This document shows, piece by piece, positions 4,151 to 5,332 of a stretch of 10,294 nucleotides of DNA (position 1 is its first letter; each line of letters opens with the position of its first letter). The stretch is from Candidatus Acidiferrales bacterium (GTDB lineage: Bacteria > Acidobacteriota > Terriglobia > Acidiferrales > UBA7541), in assembly GCA_955651735.1 (NCBI GenBank), contig CATPAM010000413.1:1-10294 (forward strand). Reading direction: 5' to 3'. The translations under genes and the position numbers were made by a program. Under the pieces are notes generated by a model. It saw nothing but the letters and a program-made list of their open reading frames with translations, searched no databases and was not told where the DNA came from.

Positions 4151-5332
4151 TCAGGCCTTGCTCTTGCCGTTGCAGCAATCGCCAGGCGGGATGGGGTTGC
4201 CATGCGGACACGTTTTCGGATGGCCGAGAAAGCTGCAGATGCGCTGGTCGAGCTCCGGACTGATGATGTGCTCGAACTTGCAAGCTTGGTTGCGAGCCTC
4301 GGAGTCTTCGATCGCGAACGTGTCCTTGAACAAACGCTCGGCAAGACGGTGACGGCGCACCACGTCGCGGGCGCGGCGGCTGCCGCCCGGCGTCAACTGC
4401 ACTTCGCCATTTTGCAATTCTACTAACTGCAGCTCCGACATGCGGCTGAGCGCGCGCGCCGCGGGCTCATCCGGCAGGATTGGGAGATGTCCGGCCGGCC
4501 CGGTAACATGAAGTATCTCGATATGCGCCGGCTTTCCTTCCTCGCCACAAATCCAGATTTGCTCGAGCAGGTGATCGAAACGAGTCTCGTCGTCCGTCGA
4601 TATGTTGCTGGTGCAGCAATCGGCGGTGTTGACGAGCGGGCAGGCGAGCGGGTGGCCGGGGCCATGCAGCGCAGTGTCAAACTGCAGGTGGCCGTGCGCG
4701 AGCTCGATGCGCCGGTCGGCTTGGCGCGCAATGTCGGGATCGTGCGTGACCATGAGAATTGTGTGGCCGGAATTGTGCAGCTCGCGAAAGATTTGCAGGA
4801 CGATGGCTTCGTTGACTTCGTCGAGATTGCCGGTGGGCTCATCCGCGAGGATCAGCTTGGGCTGATTGATGAGCGCGCGCGCGATGGCCACGCGCTGCTG
4901 CTCGCCGCCGGAAAGCTGCGCGGGAAGATGCGTCAGCCGGTCGCCCAAGCCCACACGGTTTAACGCCTCGCTGGCCTGTCTCTCATCCGTGACGCTGTGA
5001 AAATACTGTGCGAGCATCACGTTCTCGAGTGCCGTCAGGTACGGCACGAGATGAAATTGCTGAAAGACGAAGCCAATTTTCTCCGCGCGATAGCGAACCA
5101 ACTCGCCTTCGCTGAGTTTAGCGAGATCGACCCCATCGACAATCACCATCCCCGAGGTCAGGCTATCCAAGCCGCCAAGAATATTGATGAGTGTGGTCTT
5201 GCCGGAGCCGGAGGGACCCATAAGCGCGACCCATTCGCCGGACGCGATGTTAAAACTCAGGGCATCGACAGCGCGCAGGGGGCCATATTTCTTGGTCAGC
5301 GATTCGATGACGACTTGGGCGGCGGGGCTCAT
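4151..5332 (-). CDS. ABC transporter ATPase (LolD/MacB-like) fused to a DtxR-family metal-sensing domain
   Basis: 393 residues. Residues 1-222 form a complete LolD/MacB/FtsE-type ATPase: Walker [10 protein letters not shown] (39-47), Q-loop FVFQQF (88-93), signature LSGGEQQR (140-147), Walker B LILADEP (160-166, E165) and switch H197. After a linker with C231, C239 and C240, residues about 250-393 align by eye with the whole DtxR/IdeR/MntR repressor fold: [14 protein letters not shown] (253-266), [11 protein letters not shown] (311-321), [10 protein letters not shown] (326-335), ACKFEHIIS (350-358) and [10 protein letters not shown] (375-384). Metal ligands of DtxR map as H79 to H328, E83 to E332, C102 to C351, E105 to E354 and H106 to H355; M10 maps to H254, while H98 is replaced by R347. 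The recognition-helix region (about 270-300) is divergent. The start ATG overlaps the upstream permease stop (ATGA). It probably powers the two permeases; the extra domain may gate activity by intracellular metal (inference). Confidence 0.92.

Follow-up and report, generated by a model that had tools for sequence, protein, structure and literature searches.

A DtxR-derived tail on the ATPase of a predicted acidobacterial iron importer: a putative on-board Fe(II) sensor

The window, i.e., the whole 10,294-nucleotide stretch of Acidiferrales DNA that was analyzed, carries a set of transport genes on its minus strand. The ABC ATPase, a protein of 393 amino acids with a C-terminal DtxR-derived, putatively metal-sensing domain, is encoded at 4151..5332 (open reading frame; Pfam ABC_tran and Fe_dep_repr_C). 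Upstream of it on the same strand lie the genes of FtsX-type permease b (5329..6516; Pfam FtsX, E 4.6e-13), FtsX/MacB_PCD permease a (6513..7814; FtsX, 1.1e-17; MacB_PCD, 3.1e-10), which carries a MacB-type periplasmic domain according to Pfam, and a protein in which an FTR1 iron permease is joined to an FtrD-like (DUF2318) domain, with a TTG start (7919..9181; FTR1, 1.1e-37; FtrD-like, 3.3e-24). The two FtsX genes overlap by 4 bases, as do those of permease b and the ATPase. Next downstream of the ATPase, also on the minus strand, is the gene of a GBBH-like_N (DUF971) protein (3753..4136; Pfam, 8e-25), the start of which, at 4136, was chosen by the analyst, the listed open reading frame beginning at 4283; a DUF971 protein likewise lies downstream of the ATPase in L034, L035, L036, and L052. 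The operon is flanked by an amino-acid permease and a TPR/secretin-like gene (window 1-2169 and 9308-10294), homologues of which are found near the operon in L035 and L052 too.

The full set of FTR1-FtrD, FtsX, FtsX, and fused ATPase genes occurs in 10 of the 11 long stretches holding the fusion; the 11th, L038, begins at a contig end. Moreover, 16 further loci were read, and in all 16 an FtsX gene adjoins the fusion. Among the 11 fusions in the matches listed from a motif scan (see below), FTR1, FtrD, and both FtsX genes accompany six, FtsX is the only operon gene in the stretch read for three (L131, L195, and L201), and in L179 the fusion frame runs off the stretch and a distant, weak FtsX match is seen. 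At L160:6244-7362, the fused ATPase has no FTR1 or FtsX genes nearby. The direction of transport is presumably import. P19 (PF10634) was found in 0 of the 21 genomes examined, a Fur-family protein in 20 of 21, and FeoB_N matches above the Pfam cut-off in 21 of 21. In 13 of these genomes, those of the window's genus (G000-G012, its own included), the best FeoB_N matches reach no more than 8e-17 to 3e-21, which is weak, and many form tandem pairs; they are read as EngA-like GTPases. Matches of 1e-49 to 1e-54 occur in G037, G041, and G043. As its best matches are weak and EngA-like, the genus probably lacks FeoB and, given this probable absence, may depend on the FTR1-FtrD/FtsX importer.

The preliminary description had claimed that an ATPase and a DtxR-type domain share one frame, and this fusion is confirmed: the open reading frame is uninterrupted, and its tail matches the DtxR metal-binding and dimerization profile (PF02742) with 93.6 bits against a cut-off of 27. 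The same profile is found in 61 of 61 fusions; the DtxR helix-turn-helix (HTH) profile, which the preliminary description had proposed to search as well, matches none of them (see below). In the window protein, Pfam and the predicted structure agree on an intact nucleotide-binding domain (NBD) and, after it, a distinct C-terminal domain. The NBD spans residues 5-219 (4676..5320, minus strand; Pfam and motif columns), with Walker A at residues 39-46, the signature LSGGE at 140-144, and Walker B at 160-165, and these motif columns are invariant or almost so in an alignment of 61 of the 65 distinct fused loci (L030/L033, which have a run of N, L101, L136, and L201 were left out). A variable linker follows (residues 220-245; 4598..4675, minus strand), delimited by model confidence, which is low at residues 226-232 and 238-241, and by pN/pS. 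The position of the tail relative to the NBD is predicted with low confidence (pTM 0.67). Within the tail, all on the minus strand, helix 1 of a former winged helix (residues 246-264; 4541..4597; model helix 246-264, column counts, and pN/pS) precedes a degenerate HTH and wing (residues 265-313; 4394..4540; profile counts and pN/pS), and these are followed by the DtxR metal-binding and dimerization domain (residues 314-388; 4169..4393; Pfam, IdeR alignment, and ligand counts). The latter includes the hallmark of a subfamily, CPHxxxIPxGxCC (residues 375-387; 4172..4210; motif counts). Pfam gave no match to an SH3/FeoA third domain in the window protein, which ends 6 residues past the CC pair.

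Judging by the alignment, the metal ligand residues, those of helix 1 included, are kept in the fusions. On helix 1, H254 and E257 are taken here to correspond to DtxR M10 and MntR E11, respectively. The M10 position is occupied by H in 35, E in 23, D in 2, and N in 1 of the 61 fusions (column counts), and the E11 position by E in 57. In the metal-binding domain, the DtxR ligand positions H79, E83, C102, E105, and H106 (H328, E332, C351, E354, and H355 of the window protein) are kept in 56, 61, 60, 61, and 60 of the 61 fusions, respectively. The H98 position of the ancillary site holds H in 28, E in 26, and R in 2 fusions; the window protein has R there, which makes more than one full metal site unlikely. 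At the C102 position, 21 of 24 ordinary DtxR proteins carry E, so that the fused sensor has here a residue of the DtxR/IdeR type; a preference for iron is presumed. This control comprises 24 of 27 frames, one further frame having been left out in each of L215, L050, and L051, and it is not a random sample, since 20 of its loci were taken as the next-best scorers below the subfamily in the tail search.

In contrast to the metal site, the DNA-reading part of the tail is, on the alignment evidence, degenerate. The DtxR HTH profile (PF01325, E<=0.01) matches 0 of 61 fusions and 19 of the 24 ordinary DtxR proteins; as 5 of these 24 also go without a match, a missing match alone is weak evidence. 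Across 30 sequences of the fused protein from the genus, residues 265-313 have a pN/pS of 0.45, compared with 0.13 in helix 1, 0.14 in the sensor, 0.16 in the NBD, and 0.24 in the linker, whereas 21 sequences of the genus's ordinary DtxR give 0.07 for helix 1, 0.13 for the HTH, 0.11 for the sensor, and 0.18 for the SH3 domain; because pS is near saturation (0.57-0.71), these values are rough, and it is the contrast that counts. In addition, a His-rich stretch (e.g., HPPEPHDHKHVVNPCHD) interrupts the HTH/wing in 7 of 61 fusions (L067, L070, L073, L075, L076, L078, and L148), six of them from family f11. These observations suggest that DNA binding by the tail has been lost. However, the tail retains a winged-helix outline in the predicted structure, aligning with DtxR from its first residues on, and DNA binding is thus still conceivable.

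Since the ligands are kept, the DNA-reading helices are lost, and the domain is attached to the ATPase of a predicted iron importer, post-translational sensing of iron is the best reading of the tail. The usual description of bacterial iron uptake places its control at transcription; the sequence evidence suggests that in this case cellular iron could control the importer directly rather than through genes. In particular, the reading somewhat favored here derives the tail from a DtxR-type repressor and gives it a present role in sensing Fe(II) on board the FTR1-FtrD/FtsX uptake motor. In the proposed mechanism, a former repressor that no longer reads DNA would monitor Fe(II) on the motor, and the two ATPase subunits would bring two tails together. 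Cytosolic Fe(II) would fill the sensor site, formed by the helix-1 ligand together with H328, E332, C351, E354, and H355, and the filled site would lock the pair of tails in a closed dimer. The closed dimer would in turn fix both ATPase domains in an unproductive geometry, so that ATP-driven import would stop; when iron is short, the tails would relax and the pump would run. Iron is the presumed ligand of the tail, and dimerization of the tails within the transporter is likewise presumed; inhibition, not activation, at high iron would be expected by analogy with MetNI and ModBC.

The tail also carries Cys and His residues beyond the DtxR ligands. C366, H371, C375, and H377 are invariant, and C386 and C387 are present in at least 90% of the 61 fusions; together, these residues (window 4172-4237) may form a second metal or cluster site. 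The CPHxxxIPxGxCC hallmark is found in 60 of 61 fusions, 79 of 79 FeoA-type proteins, and 0 of 24 ordinary DtxR proteins, and the Cys/His positions matching the fusion set are invariant in the 79 FeoA types. A scan for this pattern returned at least 120 stretches. Among the matches listed, 120 motif frames comprise 11 ATPase fusions, all in records titled Acidobacteriota, 85 frames with a FeoA domain, and 24 others, 21 of which are in archaeal records. The FeoA types (L043-L046 and L083-L200) lie in many phyla, according to the records among the matches listed, and for 64 of the 85 proteins listed FeoB is present in the stretch read. They were aligned for 79 of the 85 (the other 6 are cut short or lack the N-terminus), and PF01325 matches 1 of these 79. 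The Geomonas members bear the name 'metal-dependent transcriptional regulator'. In eight loci from Nitrospirota/Nitrospinota (L092, L107, L116, L118, L119, L158, L189, and L190), no FeoB was seen in the stretch read, and several members from these phyla adjoin RNase HII-, TrmD-, and ribosomal protein L19-like genes, as judged by eye. Eighteen of the 24 further motif frames were treated as short types; the 6 excluded are cut short, odd, or fusion ends. In two Nitrososphaerales loci (L091:223-3254 and L166:181-3173), a short subfamily member adjoins an 800-residue protein with an FTR1 domain, and that of L166 matches the HTH model. A single origin of the tail was examined with a tree built on a short alignment of 41 of 61 fusions, 41 of 79 FeoA types, 18 short types, and 24 ordinary DtxR proteins; it takes 2 changes to account for the fused group and 3 to account for the FeoA group, and either direction of change would fit this tree.

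Such a supply of conserved ligands would also suit a tail that is a cytosolic acceptor or chaperone for incoming Fe(II) and performs no switching. DtxR-family sites bind Fe(II), and the extra Cys/His residues, the near-invariant CC pair, and the His-rich insert of some fusions could all be understood as metal-handling features. However, the tail sits on the ATPase, and the likely path of iron leads through FTR1; moreover, the DtxR dimer domain acts as a switch in its known function, and the FeoA-type sister is encoded on its own, next to FeoB. Metal hand-off is the best placed of the alternatives and nevertheless unlikely.

Next in standing is a regulator resembling YtgCR, in which the tail, released by a protease or still tethered, would repress transcription of the operon in an iron-dependent manner. 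There is a precedent, as the permease-DtxR fusion YtgC-YtgR of Chlamydia is cleaved and the YtgR part represses (PMC5599777). The winged-helix outline of the model and the low-confidence linker would be in keeping with such a role, as would the short archaeal members of the subfamily, in which the HTH is retained (7 of the 18 were searched with PF01325, and all 7 match). In the fusions themselves, however, the HTH profile finds no match, the HTH region has a within-genus pN/pS of 0.45, against 0.13 for that of ordinary DtxR, positions presumed to be DNA contacts vary in the tail alignment, and a His-rich stretch breaks into the HTH/wing of several members. As the DNA-reading helices are degenerate, the direct feedback proposed in the preliminary description is favored over a tethered repressor, and this second alternative is unlikely as well. 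The profile counts and the pN/pS contrast also make an ordinary repressor on a string unlikely.

A further alternative keeps the on-board switch and moves its sensory site: the set C366, H371, C375, H377, C386, and C387, rather than the DtxR site, would act as an Fe-S or redox switch. Its strict conservation in the fusions and the FeoA types and the absence of the motif from the 24 ordinary DtxR proteins argue for it. Against this, the DtxR ligands are equally conserved, and the motif also occurs in archaeal members with a match to the HTH model and is thus not tied to ATPase control. This possibility is judged improbable, and the reading of the tail as an Fe(II) sensor working through its DtxR site is retained.

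The fusion recurs widely. The tail search returned some DtxR-type match, ordinary DtxR included, in 56 of 61 genomes (own and relatives), and the fusion is present as a full frame in 30 of the 35 other genomes of the window's genus; in G025 it is cut at a contig edge, and in G004, G013, G015, and G029 no fusion was seen in this search. The database holds 3696 matches at E<=0.001, which may include ordinary DtxR; ABC_tran-type and DtxR-type Pfam domains are both present in 120 of 120 relatives (the best 120 of 3696), and the named relatives among the matches listed are annotated as ABC transporter ATPases. Absence of the architecture from close relatives, which the preliminary description had named as a ground for doubt, is thereby refuted. 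A restriction of the fusion to the genus was rejected as well, since full frames occur in other families too. Thus, many Acidobacteria carry, on the ATPase of a predicted iron importer, this putative sensor tail. The assembly of the window genome is fragmented (577 contigs, 73% complete), but the same frame in so many relatives within and beyond the genus, together with the two-domain database relatives, leaves virtually no room for an assembly artefact, a frameshift, or a chance resemblance.

Natural counterparts without the tail are also found. In a phylum survey of 247 genomes, an FtsX-a match at E<=1e-30 was obtained in 33 besides the window genome; 16 of these have a fused ATPase and 14 an ATPase without a tail (13 plus G065), and of the 3 others, G189 yielded no ATPase and contig ends interrupt G070 and G094. 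The 13 tail-less ATPases come from 14 orthologous operons of genus g23 (the 14th being that of G189); they measure 251-297 codons from stop to stop and finish at the end of the NBD. Family f11, to which g23 belongs, also includes other, tail-bearing genera. The ATPase of G065, from another family, has 249 codons. The presence of natural tail-less ATPases in the orthologous operon indicates that the motor works without the tail and that regulation by the tail is dispensable, which fits an optional regulatory add-on. In an NBD tree of 38 of the 61 fusions, 14 tail-less sequences, and 1 outgroup, the 13 g23 sequences group together (100/100), although at an open fork; L237 and the outgroup, both on long branches, come together. 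It is a guess that g23 lost the tail rather than never gained it. A single phylum thus offers a natural experiment, its genera having the same operon in three forms: tail-less, tailed, and tailed with a His-rich insert.

FeoA types often lie beside FeoB and the fusions occur with FTR1/FtsX; the module therefore accompanies two unrelated iron importers. Neither the degenerate DNA-reading helices nor an HTH-poor sister family associated with FeoB had been anticipated by the earlier reading. A broader proposal, which is tentative and more doubtful than the one made for the ATPase tail, is that a branch of the DtxR family has moved off DNA to become a general post-translational iron switch, fused to the ATPase in Acidobacteriota and acting via FeoA on FeoB across phyla. 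If this were true, the annotation 'metal-dependent transcriptional regulator' would stand on many proteins that are in fact transporter gates. The role of FeoA has been called enigmatic (PMC8980893); if the FeoB-linked sister works alike, this would bear on that role and on the misannotation of a large protein family.

The regulatory domains of MetN and ModC respond to methionine and molybdate, respectively, and fast feedback is known for the methionine and molybdate importers; a conserved sensor on the motor would, if confirmed, provide similarly fast feedback by iron. A regulatory effect on the NBDs has been proposed for the C-terminal domains of other ABC motors, MetNI and ModBC among them (PMC7367683), and the present protein shares with MetN (C2 domain) and ModC a C-terminal, putatively regulatory domain on the motor subunit, which is dimeric in the case of MetNI (PMC7367683). 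The MetN and ModC domains have a ferredoxin-like or TOBE fold (PMC7367683), whereas a DtxR fold, with iron as its probable ligand, is found here. The preliminary description knew of no well-described transporter with a DtxR-type domain on its motor subunit. As regards the ATPase, this stands, as searches of the open-licence literature yielded no report of an ABC ATPase with such a domain; for transporters in general it has to be qualified, given that permease-repressor fusions similar to YtgC-YtgR have been reported in 11 phyla (PMC5599777). Like Chlamydia YtgCR, the window protein joins a subunit of a metal transporter to a C-terminal DtxR-type domain in one frame; unlike in YtgCR, where the permease is the fused subunit and the DtxR-type part acts as a transcriptional repressor after cleavage, the ATPase is fused and the HTH is degenerate. 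With DtxR, IdeR, and MntR it has in common the metal-binding and dimerization domain, the ligand residues, and the predicted fold, and it differs from them in being fused to an ATPase, with no recognizable HTH and no SH3/FeoA third domain. With the FeoA-fused DtxR-like proteins it shares the CPHxxxIPxGxCC subfamily, the ligand residues, and an HTH that is mostly unrecognizable; those are separate proteins with a FeoA domain in many phyla, whereas the present tail is fused to the ATPase.

With respect to the operon, the iron uptake system encoded by Campylobacter genes 1649-1655 comprises FTR1, P19, DUF2318, FtsX, FtsX, and ATPase genes, and its first six genes have the same order and similar lengths in 33 species (PMC6083913). 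FTR1, DUF2318, permease, permease, and ATPase follow in the same order here; in contrast to the Campylobacter system, however, FTR1 and DUF2318 are fused, P19 was not found in the 21 genomes examined, and the ATPase has an extra tail. The sifABCDE system of Bifidobacterium, which has two FtsX-type permeases and the ATPase SifD and is associated with ferrous iron, looks related to the present operon, and DtxR is not mentioned in the corresponding paper (PMC5449479).
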